A stretch of 8,445 bases of DNA, from positions 1 through 8,445 of the forward strand of contig JAODMX010000463.1 of NCBI GenBank assembly GCA_025464735.1, written 5' to 3'. Below are positions 3,308-6,715 of the stretch, one piece after another. Position 1 is the stretch's first letter. Each line of letters starts with the position of its first letter. The DNA comes from Frondihabitans sp. GTDB lineage: Bacteria; Actinomycetota; Actinomycetes; Actinomycetales; Microbacteriaceae. The translations under genes and the position numbers were made by a program. The notes beneath the pieces are model-generated. The model saw nothing but the letters and a program-made list of their open reading frames with translations, was not told the origin of the DNA and did no database searches.

Positions 3308-3337
3308 GCGCTCACGGCCTGCGCAGGGCTAGCGCTT
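3306..3337. terminator. Nested dyad between convergent CDF and tadA genes
   Basis: AAGCGCT (3306-3312) and AGCGCTT (3331-3337) form a 7-bp inverted repeat overlapping both stop codons, and between them lies a second palindrome, CCTGCGCAGG (3318-3327). The symmetry and placement between converging genes fit a bidirectional terminator. There is no long T-run, as is common in actinobacteria. Confidence 0.45.
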
Positions 3338-3811
3338 CGAGGCGAAGAACCCGTCGAGGAGGGCCGCGCACTCCCCGGCACGCACCCCGGCGTAGACCTC
3401 GGCGCGGTGCGGGAGCCTGCGGTCGCGGACGATGTCGTAGACGCTGCCCGCGGCTCCTGCCTTCTCATCCCACGCGCCGAAGACAAGCCGCGGCACCCGT
3501 GCGGCGAGAATCGCGCCGGCACACATCGGACACGGCTCGAGCGTGACGACGAGAGTCGCCCCCGTCAGGTGCCAGTCGCCCGTCGCTCGCGCGGCAGCGC
3601 GCAGAGCAAGCACCTCGGCGTGGGCGGTAGGGTCTGCGGTCGCCTCGCGTTCATTGTGGCCGATCCCAAGGATCCTGCCCTCGGCATCGACCACGACCGC
3701 ACCCACCGGAACGTCGCCGGTCTCGGCACAGCGCTGAGCTTCGTCAAGCGCCAGCTGCATCCAGCCGTCGAAAGCCGCCGGCACGGGCGAACCGTGAGGC
3801 AGTGCAGGCAC
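3329..3811 (-). CDS. tadA: tRNA-specific adenosine deaminase (TadA)
   Basis: Zinc-dependent deaminase that converts the wobble adenosine (position 34) of tRNA-Arg(ACG) to inosine. 160 residues from GTG 3811, a normal TadA length. I chose this GTG because a strong ribosome site GGAGGT (minus strand, 3822-3817) lies 5 bases before it; the ATG at 3760, within [10 protein letters not shown], would also give a near-complete protein but lacks this site. The frame remains open upstream to 3961, but that would overlap upp. Catalytic zinc motif: TAHAEVLAL (His ligand and proton-shuttle Glu) followed by [12 protein letters not shown] (two Cys ligands). VPVGAVVVD and the C-terminal region [17 protein letters not shown] are also typical. 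HAE plus PCxMC alone would fit other cytidine or guanine deaminases, but the N- and C-terminal sequence makes TadA clearly the best call. Confidence 0.94.
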
Positions 3812-3838
3812 GCGGCACCTCCGAACTCTCGACTCCGC

Positions 3839-3852
3839 TAGCCTCGAGCCTA
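3839..3852. promoter_or_regulatory. Near-palindromic divergent -10 region of tadA and upp
   Basis: TAGCCTCGAGCCTA reads TAGCCT on the plus strand (3839-3844), 7 bases before the upp ATG, and TAGGCT on the minus strand (3852-3847), about 35 bases before the tadA start. Both fit TANNNT. For upp this would put the transcript start at the ATG itself, and upp has no visible ribosome site. For tadA it leaves a leader of roughly 29 bases holding GGAGGT. No good -35 is visible. Confidence 0.45.
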
Positions 3853-4484
3853 TGCGAGTGCACGTGGCCGACCACCCCCTCATCACCCACAAGCTCACGG
3901 TGCTCCGCGACAAGAGGACGAAGTCGCCGACGTTCCGTGCGCTCACCGAGGAGCTCGTCACGTTGCTCGCCTACGAGGCGACCCGCACGGTCCGCACCGA
4001 GCCGATCGACATCGAGACCCCTGTGGGCCCGACGACCGGTCTGGCCATCAGCAAGCCCCGTCCGTTGGTGGTGCCGATCCTGCGCGCGGGCCTCGGCATG
4101 CTCGAGGGAATGACCAAGCTGGTGCCATCGGCCGAGGTCGGATTCCTCGGCATGATGCGCGACGAAGAGACCTTGCAGCCGACCACCTACGCCGAACGTC
4201 TGCCCGACGATCTCTCGAACCGGCAGTGCTTCGTGCTCGATCCGATGCTGGCGACGGGTGGGTCACTGATCGCCGCGATCGATTTCCTCCTCACGCGCGG
4301 GGCCGTCGATGTCACAGCCGTGTGCATCCTGGCGTCACCCGAAGGTCTGGCCGCCGTCGAGAAAGCGATGCACGGTCGCGAGGTGTCAATCGTGCTGGGT
4401 GCCGTCGACGAGCGACTGAACGAGAACGGGTACATCGTGCCGGGACTGGGCGACGCGGGCGACCGTTTGTACGGGCTCGCCTGA
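3852..4484 (+). CDS. upp: Uracil phosphoribosyltransferase
   Basis: Cytoplasmic pyrimidine-salvage enzyme: uracil + PRPP to UMP + PPi. 210 residues, standard for the family. The start sequence [20 protein letters not shown] is characteristic. [16 protein letters not shown] (about residues 69-84) is a conserved PRTase segment. The PRPP-binding loop is [12 protein letters not shown] (about 126-137), and the uracil-binding C-terminus is [19 protein letters not shown]. All key motifs look intact. No Shine-Dalgarno-like sequence precedes the ATG; TAGCCT ends 7 bases before it, so the mRNA is probably leaderless. Divergent from tadA with 40 bases between. The next downstream promoter begins only 43 bases after the stop, so there may be some read-through into the winged-helix leader. 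Confidence 0.96.
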
Positions 4485-4491
4485 GCTTTTG

Positions 4492-4520
4492 CCCGGTCGC
4501 GACCGGGTACGACGCGTACC
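4492..4520. repeat. Two overlapping palindromes upstream of the leader promoter
   Basis: CCCGGTCGCGACCGGG (4492-4507) is a perfect 16-bp palindrome. It runs into GGTACG, 3 bases, CGTACC (4506-4520), a second dyad ending 6 bases before the TTGACA box. The first may contribute to termination behind upp, although the T-run (4487-4490) precedes rather than follows it. The second is placed like an operator or activator site for the leader promoter. Their function is not shown by sequence. Confidence 0.45.
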
Positions 4521-4526
4521 GCTCGG

Positions 4527-4555
4527 TTGACAGACACCCGGAGGTGCGAAACAAT
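4527..4555 (+). promoter_or_regulatory. Sigma-70 promoter of the Cys-codon leader
   Basis: TTGACA (4527-4532), a 17-base spacer, and AACAAT (4550-4555, matching TATAAT at 4 of 6). Seven bases then separate the -10 from ATG 4563, so transcription should start at or within a base of the ATG, giving a leaderless mRNA. This is the best promoter match in the window. Confidence 0.7.
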
Positions 4556-4562
4556 CACCCTT

Positions 4563-4679
4563 ATGAATGCAGACGCGCACGCCCCGATCACCCGTGAGGT
4601 TCACACCTCCCGAGGTCTCGTGGGGATTACCGGCATGGTTATGCCGGTTGCCGTCCTGTGTTGTCGAATGCATGCCTAA
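4563..4679 (+). CDS. Leaderless 38-residue Cys-Cys leader peptide (candidate)
   Basis: Short frame from ATG 4563 to TAA 4677-4679. The peptide begins MNADAHAPITREVHTSRG and ends PVAVLCCRMHA; the tandem TGT Cys codons are residues 33-34, followed by CGA Arg. There is no ribosome site, but the promoter just upstream would start the mRNA at this ATG. Three segments of a possible attenuator overlap its 3' half, and the stop codon lies inside the third. In mycobacteria, leaderless short frames with runs of Cys codons are established as cysteine-responsive attenuators, and this has the same construction, though only two Cys codons. That it senses cysteinyl-tRNA is inference. It might instead be a small functional protein or a chance frame. 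The next gene is the winged-helix regulator about 300 bases downstream. Confidence 0.6.
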   Translation: MNADAHAPITREVHTSRGLVGITGMVMPVAVLCCRMHA

Positions 4680-4686
4680 CCGGCAT
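4629..4686 (+). promoter_or_regulatory. Mutually exclusive hairpins: attenuator-like switch
   Basis: Segment A ACCGGCAT (4629-4636), segment B ATGCCGGTT (4641-4649) and segment C AACCGGCAT (4678-4686). A:B pairs 8 bp with a 4-base loop. B:C pairs 9 bp plus a G-U, with a loop of about 28 bases holding the two Cys codons. B cannot pair with both. A ribosome at the Cys codons (4659-4664) sits just past B, and one at the stop codon covers the start of C, so translation could decide which hairpin forms. All pairing is read directly from sequence; the regulatory role is inferred. Confidence 0.55.
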
Positions 4687-4975
4687 CCGACCCGCCGAGT
4701 CACCGCTGGTCTGCAGGCCTGATACAGCTGCCCTGCAACCCGCGACCGCGAGTTGAACCTCACCAGGTTCGCGCGGACGTGACTCCGGATGCACAATCCG
4801 CCCCACAAGGCGGAGCATCCCTCCCCGCTCCAAGATCCCGGGCTTCATTTTCCCGACTTGCGAGCCTCGCGGCACACACCGAAGGCATCGCGTTCCTTCT
4901 CCGCACCCGGCCTGCTCCCTAGGGGCTCGGGTTGGCGGACGAACGGGTGACTTCCTCGTCCCAAAGGACTCCCCC
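4687..4975 (+). promoter_or_regulatory. Structured leader before the winged-helix gene
   Basis: No gene is seen in these 289 bases. Predicted stems: TGCAGG/CCTGCA (4712-4717 with 4732-4737); CCGCG plus GAACCT paired with AGGTTC plus CGCGG (4746-4750, 4755-4760, 4765-4770, 4772-4776; 4-base loop); and GGATGC plus CCGCC paired with GGCGG plus GCATCC (4787-4792, 4798-4802, 4809-4813, 4815-4820). The last competes with GGAGC/GCTCC (4812-4816 with 4827-4831). None is followed by a T-run. The ribosome site AAAGGA (4963-4968) lies 7 bases before ATG 4976. I do not recognise a known riboswitch class. Confidence 0.4.
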
Positions 4976-5698
4976 ATGTCTCTCGCTCTTGACACCACCA
5001 GCATCCAGGCCCCGTCCACTCAGGCCCCCGCCACCCGCCACCTCACCGCGGTCGAGCCCCCGGCTCCCGCCCCCCGCCTCAGTGCCGTTCCCGCGGGCAC
5101 CGAGGCACGCGGGTTCGTTCTCTACGTCGGCATCGACGAGCTGAAAGCGGCCGACGCCGGCACCAGCCTCGGCGAGATCGTCTCCCAGCTCCGTGCCCTC
5201 ACCGCTCAGCTCGCCCCCGCCGCCGAAACGCACGCGGCCGTGGCCCTCGCTCCCGAGGGGGCGGGCGGGCGCGACGTCGACGTTGTCCGGCTGGCACTCC
5301 AGGATCCGGCAGCCCTCGCCAAGCACCGCCGGACCGAGGTCGACGAAGAACCCGGTGCTCGCGGCGGTGTGGTGGTCGACATCTCCCGCAAGCGCCTCCT
5401 GCTCGACGGCGACGTTGCCCCCCTCACGTACAAGGAGTTCGAGCTGCTGCAGTACCTCGTGCTCCGCGAGGGTCGCACCATCGAGCGCACCGAGCTGATC
5501 TCCAGCCTCTGGTCGGCGGGCGATGACGAAGACGCACCCAACGAGCGCACCATCGACGTCCACGTGCGTCGCCTTCGCTCGAAGCTCGGGGCCTTCGAGG
5601 ACATCGTCCGGACCGTGCGCGGTGTCGGCTACCGCTTCGACCGTCACGCCGACGTGTCGATCCGCCAGGCCTCCACCCCTTCTCCCGACGTCTTCTGA
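4976..5698 (+). CDS. Orphan OmpR/PhoB-type winged-helix DNA-binding protein
   Basis: Probable transcription regulator of 240 residues. Residues 1-45 are rich in Ala, Pro and Thr and look disordered. Residues about 46-115 (GFVLYVGIDELKAADAGTS ... DVDVVRLALQD) form a small domain I do not recognise; it lacks the acidic pocket, phospho-Asp and Lys of a receiver domain. Residues 130-224 are a complete Trans_reg_C winged helix: GVVVDISRKRLLLDG, LTYKEFELLQYLVLREGRTIERTEL, recognition helix ERTIDVHVRRLRSKLG (190-205), and the wing ending VRGVGYRFD. With no receiver and no neighbouring kinase, it is not a standard two-component regulator. The start has AAAGGA at 7 bases. The long leader with a Cys-codon frame suggests its expression is tuned after transcription starts. 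Its targets are unknown; the GTTAC/GTTAT dyad 180 bases downstream is the right type of site for this fold. Confidence 0.85.
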   Translation: MSLALDTTSIQAPSTQAPATRHLTAVEPPAPAPRLSAVPAGTEARGFVLYVGIDELKAADAGTSLGEIVSQLRALTAQLAPAAETHAAVALAPEGAGGRDVDVVRLALQDPAALAKHRRTEVDEEPGARGGVVVDISRKRLLLDGDVAPLTYKEFELLQYLVLREGRTIERTELISSLWSAGDDEDAPNERTIDVHVRRLRSKLGAFEDIVRTVRGVGYRFDRHADVSIRQASTPSPDVF

Positions 5699-5706
5699 TC
5701 AGCTGT

Positions 5707-5754
5707 CGAGGCGCCTCGCGGCGTTGTCGTCGGGCGCGATAGCGCCGCTATCGC
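5707..5754 (+). terminator. Palindrome and hairpin behind the winged-helix gene
   Basis: CGAGGCGCCTCG (5707-5718) is a perfect 12-bp palindrome. GCGATAGC, a 3-base loop and GCTATCGC (5736-5754) form an 8-bp hairpin 37 bases after the stop. The sequence after it is pyrimidine-rich but mostly C. Likely terminator for the winged-helix transcript; a U-tract is lacking. Confidence 0.45.
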
Positions 5755-5818
5755 TTCCTCCTCCGCCTTGCGATCCACCGCGACATCAGATCAGGCTATT
5801 TTGTCCCCCAGGGCGCGG

Positions 5819-5837
5819 ACCGGGTGTACCCCGGTTT
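5819..5837 (+). terminator. Second hairpin with short T-run
   Basis: ACCGGG, a 5-base loop (TGTAC) and CCCGGT (5819-5835), followed by TT and then A. Compact GC-rich stem with a minimal T-run, so it may be a back-up terminator. It also precedes the AT-rich stretch starting at about 5850. Confidence 0.35.
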
Positions 5838-5876
5838 ACCCGATGGCCATGTTTTTACAAGGATGTTCCCAGAAAA

Positions 5877-5916
5877 ATAACGATTGGGTAACTAGCCCTC
5901 GTTACCAAGTCGTTAT
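5877..5916. promoter_or_regulatory. Dyad of four GTTAC/GTTAT half-sites (OmpR-family type)
   Basis: ATAACGATTGGGTAAC (5877-5892), 8 bases, GTTACCAAGTCGTTAT (5901-5916). The arms match at 14 of 16 positions. Each arm is itself a direct repeat: GTTAC and GTTAT start 11 bases apart, one helical turn, on the plus strand at 5901 and 5912 and on the minus strand at 5892 and 5881. Tandem half-sites at 10-11 base spacing are what OmpR/PhoB-family dimers bind, and GTTAC-like repeats resemble reported actinobacterial MtrA sites. It lies in the only markedly AT-rich part of the window. Confidence 0.55.
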
Positions 5917-5926
5917 AGATTGATGT

Positions 5927-6026
5927 CACTGAAGTTGTTTGCTGTGGCAGCTTCAGTGGAATGTGATTGCAGGACACTCTTGGTGCAAGGGAGAGGGTCG
6001 GTCTCTAGCCTCTGAGACCGACCCTC
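5927..6026 (+). ncRNA. Candidate ~100-nt small RNA or leader
   Basis: TAGATT (5916-5921), directly after the GTTAC/GTTAT dyad, fits a -10 and would start transcription near 5927-5929. That point begins a stem CACTGAAG/CTTCAGTG (5927-5934 with 5951-5958). A 34-base linker follows, then a perfect 13-bp stem GAGGGTCGGTCTC/GAGACCGACCCTC (5993-6005 with 6014-6026) with an 8-base loop. Start-site hairpin plus strong 3' hairpin resembles a small RNA unit. No T-run follows the 3' hairpin. It could instead be the upstream part of a long marR leader. No known RNA family recognised; the loops lack the C-runs of actinobacterial 6C RNA. Confidence 0.35.
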
Positions 6027-6064
6027 AGTCCGTTAAGCGGTCCCTTCGGCCGTCGCGAGAACGC

Positions 6065-6133
6065 CGACGCACCCCCGTCCGGACTAACCCAGCGCCGACG
6101 GCGGGGGCCTCTCGTCCGGACGGGGGTGCGTCG
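6065..6133. repeat. Perfect 20-bp inverted repeat with 29-base loop
   Basis: Left arm 6065-6084, right arm 6114-6133, with all 20 positions complementary; the arms contain a C5/G5 run and a self-palindromic GTCCGGAC. The loop (6085-6113) holds a small stem CGCC/GGCG. No T-run flanks it on either strand, so it is not a standard terminator. It may be a copy of a dispersed repeat, a protein site, or a transcription barrier between the region upstream and marR. Confidence 0.7.
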
Positions 6134-6171
6134 CACGGGGACGGCGGCCGGCCGAGCGGTCCGACTTTTCG

Positions 6172-6191
6172 TAGACTGGTGGCCACCAATC
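6172..6191 (+). promoter_or_regulatory. marR operon promoter and candidate MarR operator
   Basis: TAGACT (6172-6177) fits a -10 and would start transcription near 6184. TGGTGGCCACCA (6177-6188) is a perfect 12-bp palindrome overlapping that start; with two flanking pairs it becomes an 18-bp imperfect dyad (6174-6191). MarR proteins typically repress their own operons from such palindromes. No clear -35 is seen. Confidence 0.5.
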
Positions 6192-6208
6192 AGTCGAGGA
6201 GCACCCGA

Positions 6209-6715
6209 GTGAGCGACAAGACAGTGAGCGACAAAGCGCTGGCGGTCAACGCGTGGGAGTCCCTCTTTCGCGCCCAGGTCACGATCATGCGCGAGTTGAC
6301 GGCGTGTTTTCCGACCGGTGAGATCTCGTTCAACGAATACGACGTGCTATTCAACCTCTCCAGTCAGCCTGAGCGACGGGCTCGCATCAAGGAGCTGACG
6401 CAGCACCTGCTGCTCACGCAGCCGAGCATCAGCCGTCTGGTCGACCGACTCGCCTCGAAGGGCATCGTCTCGAAGCTGAGCGATCCGGGCGACGGCCGGG
6501 GCATCATCGTGGTCATGACCGACCTCGGTGGCGACATCTTCCGCACGACGGCAGTCCGACATGCCGACGCGATCTCGCGTCGGGTCGGGGGCACCCTCGA
6601 TCGGGCGGAGCTCATGCAGCTCCTCGAGCTCTGCACGAAACTTCGTCTCGGCACCCAGATCGCCGACACCCCGGTCGACGATCGCCTCTGCCCGACTGGT
6701 GCCGGGGCCGAGTGA
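6209..6715 (+). CDS. MarR-family transcriptional regulator
   Basis: Predicted dimeric winged-helix repressor of 168 residues, typical of the family. The start is GTG 6209, with GAGGAG (6196-6201) 7 bases upstream; the frame is open further 5' to 5939 but would run through the large inverted repeat and has no ribosome site. The first codons contain an 11-base duplication (6209-6219 and 6224-6234), giving VSDKTVSDK and a second possible GTG. The N-terminal dimerisation helix is about 10-33. The winged helix runs about 42-105: NEYDVLFNLSSQPERR, helices with TQPSISRLVDRLASKGIV (70-87; recognition helix), and the wing SDPGDGRGIIVVMTDLG with the usual D-x-R. The C-terminal helix is about 130-148. 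The gene overlaps the photolyase by 4 bases, so it probably controls itself, the photolyase and the hydrolase. Its ligand is unknown. Confidence 0.9.
   Translation: MSDKTVSDKALAVNAWESLFRAQVTIMRELTACFPTGEISFNEYDVLFNLSSQPERRARIKELTQHLLLTQPSISRLVDRLASKGIVSKLSDPGDGRGIIVVMTDLGGDIFRTTAVRHADAISRRVGGTLDRAELMQLLELCTKLRLGTQIADTPVDDRLCPTGAGAE

Follow-up and report, generated by a model that had tools for sequence, protein, structure and literature searches.

Leaderless Cys-Rich Leaders With a CGA-AUG Core Precede an Orphan OmpR-Type Regulator Gene in Actinobacteria and May Control It

The window analyzed in this study is a stretch of 8,445 nucleotides of chromosomal DNA of Frondihabitans sp. (Microbacteriaceae). 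Positions 3329–4484 carry tadA on the reverse strand and upp (3852–4484) on the forward strand; a gene for a winged-helix protein follows, and a short leader frame lies between upp and that gene (Table 1). An earlier note, made from the letters of this DNA alone, had described a promoter, its spacing to an ATG, a 38-codon frame with Cys codons, and three segments (A, B, and C) proposed to form mutually exclusive hairpins; all of these elements were found in place. The promoter was the only sigma-70-like site detected on either strand of positions 4480–6210, compared with a mean of 0.1 in shuffled sequences. The frame ends with CTG TGT TGT CGA ATG CAT GCC TAA. Rfam covariance models gave 0 matches to the window at E values up to 1, and thus identified no riboswitch or Rfam leader there.

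Table 1 Features of the leader and regulator region of the window
Feature	Positions	Strand	Basis or remark
Sigma-70-like promoter, TTGACA-17 nt-AACAAT	4527–4555 (TTGACA 4527–4532, AACAAT 4550–4555)	+	7 nt 5′ of ATG 4563
Leader peptide frame, MNADAHAPITREVHTSRGLVGITGMVMPVAVLCCRMHA*, 38 codons	4563–4679 (TAA 4677–4679)	+	Aligned with 79 related leaders
A/B hairpin over G-M-V-M-P codons	4629–4649 (A, ACCGGCAT, 4629–4636; B, ATGCCGGTT, 4641–4649)	+	Present
Tandem Cys codons, TGT TGT	4659–4664	+	Codon counts in 80 leaders
Core, CGA ATG (Arg-Met)	4665–4670	+	CGA kept across leaders
Segment C, AACCGGCAT	4678–4686	+	Pairs with B over 9 positions in the window
P1 5′ arm, CGCCGAGTCAC	4693–4703	+	GAG...CTC helix; three inner pairs covary in Microbacteriaceae UTRs
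P1 3′ arm, GTGACTCCGGA	4779–4789	+	7 exact pairs, 4779–4785 with 4697–4703
Regulator ribosome-binding site (RBS), AAAGGA	4963–4968	+	AGGAG, AAGGA, or GAGGT in UTRs of 109/123 relatives; 28.2 in shuffles
Orphan OmpR-type winged-helix regulator, presumed target	4976–5698	+	Trans_reg_C at residues 148–221
Candidate non-coding RNA gene	5905–6030 (block 5866–6040)	+	3′ of regulator

The regulator is 89–92% identical to the proteins of three named Frondihabitans. Its description in the earlier note as receiver-less agreed with the Pfam profiles, which assigned Trans_reg_C alone and no receiver domain. The predicted structure had a mean pLDDT of 71, with residues 1–43 below 50 and middling or low confidence in the N-terminal half. 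Its best matches among solved structures were OmpR-type DNA-binding domains, the first being GlnR at 43% identity (PDB 8hig, 8hml). The likeness to GlnR, an OmpR-family protein, lies in the DNA-binding domain; unlike GlnR, the window protein has no receiver by profile. It is not a known sulfur gene. The plasmid matches listed for positions 4400–5000 fell at the upp end, and the phage matches listed (5 of 50) fell at the regulator's DNA-binding domain.

The winged-helix gene had 472 relatives, and conservation of the leader was examined in the best 80 of these loci. The earlier note had held that related genomes lacking the frame, with no covariation, would speak against it; a leader of the same type preceded the same orphan regulator in 79 of the 80 loci, and the remaining locus (L076), with only 144 nt 5′ of the match, was too short to judge. 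These 79 leaders end in C-R-M-[C/H/S]-[A/R/L]-stop, in which C-R-M was the search motif, satisfied by all 79 loci having sufficient upstream sequence. On sequence grounds, the window frame is a genuine conserved leader, beyond chance. The proposed leaderless geometry was also borne out. TTGACA with at most one mismatch was present in 74 of the 80 aligned leaders (window included), and its first T lay 36–37 nt 5′ of the ATG in 68; the ATG would therefore be at about +1. The leaders are 25–45 codons long, with the hexamer CGA ATG in frame with the leaderless ATG throughout. Substitutions were spread evenly over the three codon positions (175, 198, and 193), which argues for little constraint on the peptide outside the core; codon changes in 55 pairs comprised 297 nonsynonymous and 104 synonymous. 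None of the positions after the stop codon was strongly conserved in 121 dereplicated leaders.

A profile built from the 80 leaders matched 192 of 249 sampled family genomes (E up to 0.01) and 19 of 248 genomes of the order. Of the 57 family genomes without a match, 20 were listed, and 16 of these are at most 2.1 Mb in size. Each of six related genomes contained a single strong match, the next best having an E value of 0.04 or worse, and none had a second strong match, for example before metNIQ. Seven genomes had a second match, with E values of 0.001–0.01. Among the matches examined, profile searches of the family and class genomes revealed no convincing leader before another gene. Several loci are represented in our sets by two entries from a single genome (e.g., L001 and L085).

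Codon counts in the 80 leaders demonstrated the following: Numbered from the stop, codon −5 was CGA, codon −6 TGY, and codon −4 ATG in all 80. Cys occupied codon −7 in 63 leaders and codon −3 in 72, and the third bases of the Cys codons varied between T and C. The earlier note had stressed tandem Cys codons; these are present in the window and the Cys-rich frame is conserved, but contiguous Cys codons (TGY at both −7 and −6) were found in 63 of the 80 leaders, whereas CGA-ATG was nearly constant. In a wider set of 173 regulator loci, which includes the window and some duplicates, 168 had TGY-Arg-ATG, and the Arg codon was CGA in every one (146 distinct); TGY and ATG were search conditions here, and only the Arg codon was left free. 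CGA made up 181 of the 4323 Arg codons (4%) of the regulator genes; in upp plus tadA the count was 346 of 3939. Among the remaining Arg codons of the 80 leaders, 92 of 125 were CGC and 6 were CGA. The Cys codons were also biased: TGT accounted for 167 of 219 in the leaders (76%), and for 57 of the 63 at codon −7, whereas upp plus tadA used it in 96 of 830 (12%).

Of the remaining five loci of the wider set, L076 is truncated, and CGA-ATG was kept where the preceding codon was GCT (L158), ACG (L168), or CGT (L178). Across loci outside the aligned 80, the Cys before CGA gave way to Thr, Ala, Arg, Phe, Tyr, Ser, Leu, or Gln. The exception was L146, in which the start of the leader is kept and CGA-ATG is gone. 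(The leaders of L158, L204, L212, L213, L289, L293, L302, and L303 were read by eye.) Regarding arrest by the nascent chain, C-R-M was present in all 80 aligned leaders, window included, the body of the peptide was free to vary, and Cys was replaceable elsewhere. For the Salmonella his leader, slow decoding of CGA has been described in a paper that also cites, in the part available, faster reading of NNC codons than of NNU codons by Cys and other tRNAs (PMC4046918). Slow decoding at a stall site would therefore be a plausible explanation of the codon choice, provided that the effect extends to these bacteria. The leaders of L161, L172, and L177 end C-C-R-M-C-C-C, so that Cys codons flank CGA-ATG on both sides.

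Leaders of this kind were found in two further groups. Regulator matches (E up to 1e-30) occurred in 34 of 198 genomes of the order and in all 149 genomes of a family that we call Arthrobacter-like, a label inferred from an Arthrobacter plasmid record matching L211 over its leader region. A script found an in-frame CGAATG leader in 85 of 124 Arthrobacter-like loci, many ending C-C-R-M-H-A or C-C-C-R-M-Q-A; by this filter, the regulator lacked such a leader in the other 39. A stricter filter, which accepted any third base in the Arg codon, gave CGA leaders in 74 of the 124, plus two CGG frames (L290 and L319) without the features of the family. The codons found before CGA included CGT, TAT, TTT, TCT, CTT, CGA, and CAA, and in the more distant loci L212 and L213 this codon was CAG. 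An TGTTACTTGC element was noticed by eye at the promoter in many Arthrobacter-like loci (within L199–L303), some of them lacking the leader; a second TGTTAC sometimes follows about 21 nt on, upstream of the leader or the regulator.

The other group resembles a described leader. In Streptomyces lividans TK24, the leaderless leader metL precedes metNIQ, ends C-M-C-R-R-M-C-A-F, and was interpreted as methionine dependent; CGA is unmentioned in the sections of that paper available (PMC8079986). When 296 genomes of the class were searched with the metL peptide, 23 matches were strong (E below 1e-5). Most of these relatives begin MTTTSxRxLATEA and end C-M-C-R-M-C, encoded by TGT ATG TGT CGA ATG. We refer to them as Streptomyces-type, a label inferred from the metL match (96% in L324). 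Their Arg codon was CGA in 28 of 28 loci (18 distinct), and 58 of 85 Cys codons were TGT. In both of the two fragments profiled, the gene that follows was by far most like MetN, with scores under the curated cut-off because the fragments are partial. Two sequence-pattern searches for the leader found it in 0 of 4 and 0 of 296 genomes; the second used a two-Arg pattern that was too narrow, since the peptide search of the same 296 genomes found strong matches with, in those read, a single Arg. A combined leader profile run on these 296 genomes matched strongly only in the regulator and metN settings already known; five weaker matches (E 0.002–0.02) were in G712, G764, G686, and G836 and, as a second match, in G657. 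By eye, a TGTCC...GGACA-type inverted repeat, a possible operator, was seen 5′ of the leader in several Streptomyces-type loci (L328–L340).

The RNA between leader and regulator was searched for complements of a 12-nt core containing CGA and ATG. Among 65 Arthrobacter-like UTRs (those 85 with in-frame CGAATG, dereplicated), an exact downstream complement of at least 7 nt, the anti-core, was present in 51, compared with 7.7% of dinucleotide shuffles, and in 50 of the 51 it lay 40–51 nt before the regulator start. The most enriched heptamer was GCATTCG (45 of 65 UTRs, 1.1 expected), which RNAalifold paired with the core. Flank changes were matched in L222 (TCGAATGT with ACATTCGA), L204 and L256 (GAATGCC with GGCATTC), and L302 (CGTCGAATG with CATTCGACG); other flanks leave G-U pairs (e.g., L223, L234, and L241). 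Shifted 12-mers of the same leaders gave no excess of complements of at least 7 nt (fractions of 0.11, 0.06, and 0.00 vs. 0.08, 0.08, and 0.00 in shuffles). For Microbacteriaceae, 26 of 123 UTRs had a core complement of at least 7 nt vs. 7.2% of shuffles (controls, 0.09 and 0.13 vs. 0.07), and 13 of these 26 lay 5–10 nt before the regulator start assigned by script, an assignment with errors at a few loci (e.g., L021, L155, and L066). Each of the 18 distinct leaders of the Streptomyces type was followed by a core complement of 6 nt or more, compared with 17% of shuffles; none had one of at least 7 nt (4% in shuffles). The complements were TCGACA in 10 leaders (38–41 nt before the MetN end-mark motif), TTCGAC in 5, and GCACAT in 3, and this 6-nt stretch may be conserved for other reasons. 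We conclude that pairing of core and anti-core is supported, at the level of sequence, in the Arthrobacter-like genomes and some Microbacteriaceae.

Predicted effects of blocking the core were mixed. Exposure of the Shine–Dalgarno (SD) sequence rose by at least 0.19 in 8 of the 13 Microbacteriaceae UTRs with the anti-core 5–10 nt before the start (in L024 from 0.24 to 0.62) and not in the other 5. Mean SD exposure showed no general effect (0.46 to 0.44 for the 65 Arthrobacter-like UTRs and 0.48 to 0.49 for the 123 Microbacteriaceae UTRs), and mean exposure of the start rose slightly (0.40 to 0.46 and 0.44 to 0.47, respectively). In the window, start exposure fell from 0.11 to 0.02, and the core had at most 5 nt of exact complement in the UTR that follows, with no evident partner. 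RNAduplex pairing of core and UTR gave no excess among Microbacteriaceae: out of 100 ranks, 4 of the 99 cases placed fifth or better, and the median rank was 60. A further pairing may involve the Met codons of the leader: CATCAT lay no more than 30 nt from the regulator start in 33 of the 97 loci with ATGATG in the leader and in 0 of 18 others (Microbacteriaceae), and the duplex of each leader with its own RBS region scored −24.39 compared with a permuted mean of −23.61 (SD 0.28, 20 permutations). This is a hint that leader ATGATG may pair additionally with CATCAT in the ribosome-binding region, and it is confounded by kinship.

These pairs raise the possibility that CGA-AUG is kept solely for RNA pairing near the downstream RBS, with Cys content and decoding speed incidental, and that access to the site is governed simply by whether the leader is translated, as might change under, for example, antibiotics or a general stress on translation. 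In whiB7-type upstream ORFs, leader translation as such switches the downstream site. The anti-cores of the Arthrobacter-like and some Microbacteriaceae UTRs, the complements in every Streptomyces-type leader, and the persistence of CGA in several lineages where the Cys before it is replaced all agree with this explanation. Yet CGA is equally constant where no anti-core was found, the window included; the TGT bias extends to codon −7, which in most loci lies beyond the paired stretch; and the enrichment of Cys and Met at the frame end recurs in three lineages, in one of which the target is a Met importer. We therefore consider pairing alone possible but unlikely.

CGAATGC and GCATTCG also form an inverted repeat in the Arthrobacter-like loci, and OmpR-family proteins often regulate their own genes, so the core could be a DNA operator with an inverted downstream half-site, for the regulator or another factor, the frame being kept passively. 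The hexamer is, however, in frame with the leaderless ATG in leaders of 25–45 codons, and the third bases of the Cys codons vary between T and C. The core also precedes metN in Streptomyces-type genomes, where regulator searches of 12 of 12 genomes gave nothing better than an E value of 1.3e-17, with the best matches over the DNA-binding domain only; the core is therefore not a private operator of the regulator, and we regard an operator as very improbable.

A different helix was found after the stop codon. In Microbacteriaceae UTRs, CGCCGAG opens this helix (P1), with GAG mostly 14–19 nt past the stop, and CTCCCGG closes it; in the window, GAGTCAC pairs with GTGACTC. Among the 95 of 134 UTRs that contain a GAG[T/C] motif, 40 had an exact helix of 6 or more pairs starting from the first such motif within 60 nt of the stop, compared with 7.2% of shuffles. 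Covariation was assessed in the 68 of 134 UTRs with both CGAG and CTC plus flank, by which motifs alone the arms were set. The three inner positions paired in 50, 48, and 51 of the 68 loci, exceeding the maxima of 1000 permutations (47, 41, and 48); the fourth paired in 22 (maximum 27) and gave no pairing signal. These tests supersede a first-pass search for hairpins after the stop, in which 13 of 134 UTRs had one no more than 6 nt from the motif. A ribosome that has arrived at the stop codon would extend to the 5′ arm of P1 and one waiting at CGA would not, which is the geometry needed by an attenuator. For the window, P1 is more likely than core pairing to be the RNA that responds.

The covariation called for by the earlier note thus exists, but in helices other than A/B/C, and the proposal that those segments form a mutually exclusive attenuator did not hold. 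B:C has 9 exact pairs in the window and 4–6 in the five closest relatives examined. A/B was no more stable than synonymous randomizations (mean z of −0.28 for 101 leaders with MM and −0.58 for 26 without, compared with +0.44 for a control stretch of the regulator), so the stem largely follows from the codons, and the G-M-M-M-P block that encodes it is absent from short leaders. A classical transcription attenuator, in which the A/B/C hairpins act with an intrinsic or Rho-dependent terminator, would account for the three segments that pair as described in the window, for a 10-pair B:C in L167 when G-U is counted (6 exact), and for the one codon-level hint for A/B, that the Gly codon before M-x-M-P is GGC in 43 of 43 cases vs. 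842 of 1226 in regulator genes. With 0 terminator-like sites, and hence no intrinsic terminator downstream of the leader, in positions 4480–6210, and with A/B/C weakly kept and within what coding needs, we judge it quite improbable. As for other mutually exclusive hairpins, P1 is conserved, with no competitor found.

The preservation of Cys-rich CGA-AUG leader ends over hundreds of actinobacteria suggests that the ribosome reading the leader controls the regulator. That the translated leaderless leader acts on the regulator is, in our judgment, highly likely; we infer this control from the observed conservation, promoter geometry, and codon choice, and the transcript start, signal, and output of the window leader are likewise inferred. 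The explanation that we favor for the whole, and consider somewhat probable, is that the leaderless peptide controls the orphan regulator in cis as a ribosome-sensing attenuator, probably of Cys or Met limitation. A ribosome would begin at the 5′ AUG and slow at the end of the frame, where U-ending Cys codons meet the slow CGA. When charging of Cys-tRNA (or Met-tRNA) is low, it would stall and cover the UGY-CGA-AUG core and adjacent RNA. When supply is good, it would finish, and the core and the RNA after the stop could fold with segments near the regulator RBS, reducing expression. A shortage of sulfur amino acids would thus raise the level of the regulator. We propose sulfur amino acids as the signal with moderate confidence, based on the Cys and Met content, the use of TGT, and the parallel with metN. 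In Streptomyces-type genomes, the leader with the same core probably does likewise for this methionine importer gene.

More tentatively, the CGA-AUG leaders may form a ribosome-sensor family in which a slow, inosine-decoded Arg codon within a Cys/Met stretch doubles as the strand that pairs with the RBS region. The module would be common to a methionine importer (Streptomyces-type) and a GlnR-like orphan factor (Micrococcales), and the speed of the ribosome would set the level of a sulfur-status regulator. Attenuators usually precede biosynthetic or transport genes, whereas the gene here encodes a transcription factor; an attenuator before a regulator carried by every Arthrobacter-like genome sampled would make a local ribosome sensor regulon-wide. 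Such a reading would give the uncharacterized regulator its first testable function. The near-absolute conservation of a rare codon, with its synonyms unused, offers a natural experiment on how codon speed and RNA pairing act in regulation.

The leader can be compared with three described systems. It shares with metL a leaderless short frame with a C-R-M-type end, and like the metL relatives it carries CGA ATG; metL differs in its target, the Met import operon metNIQ rather than an orphan regulator, and in lacking the G-M-M-M-P block (PMC8079986). Candidate Cys leader peptides have been proposed for cys operons in Mycobacterium and P. acnes and for cbs in B. longum, each upstream of the genes; in the portion of that paper available, these share runs of Cys codons near the stop and the lack of a conserved terminator hairpin, differ in the genes they precede, and are described without mention of a CGA-AUG core (PMC1262725). 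Within the open-licence papers searched, as far as their text was available, we found no report of this leader or of a CGA-AUG core in leaders.

The third comparison is with mycobacteria, in which Canestrari et al. are said to have described, in 2020, polycysteine leaderless short ORFs that act by masking the RBS and have Cys metabolism loci as targets. The window leader resembles these in being leaderless, in its Cys codons, and, presumably, in downstream control by ribosome pausing. They control cysteine biosynthetic genes, whereas the window leader precedes an orphan regulator, and a sulfur-related target (metN) was found only in Streptomyces-type genomes. Placement of the AUG at +1 in our leader family comes from promoter geometry, and its constant feature is CGA-AUG rather than contiguous Cys codons.

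The genes upstream of the leader are also conserved in position. Among 81 loci having more than 2 kb upstream, upp was within 1 kb in 72 and tadA in 76. CGA is read by inosine made by TadA, and in the window tadA lies two genes upstream of the leader; the leader might thus report tRNA modification too.

Downstream of the regulator, the candidate non-coding RNA gene (Table 1) is marked by a nearly invariant GGAATGTGATTGCAGGACACTCTTGGTGCAAGGGAGAG, a terminal hairpin with compensatory changes, and a promoter-like GTTACC..CGTTATATATT. It had no match in Rfam 15. None was found in the Arthrobacter-like and metN loci, of which only L198–L243, with the downstream flank present, are informative. Seven of 99 genomes of the order carried it, each of them also having a match to the leader profile. 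It was present in 55 of the 80 loci L001–L080, on the strand of the regulator in 33 and on the opposite strand in 22. The GTAACG-type repeats at this candidate RNA resemble MtrA boxes.
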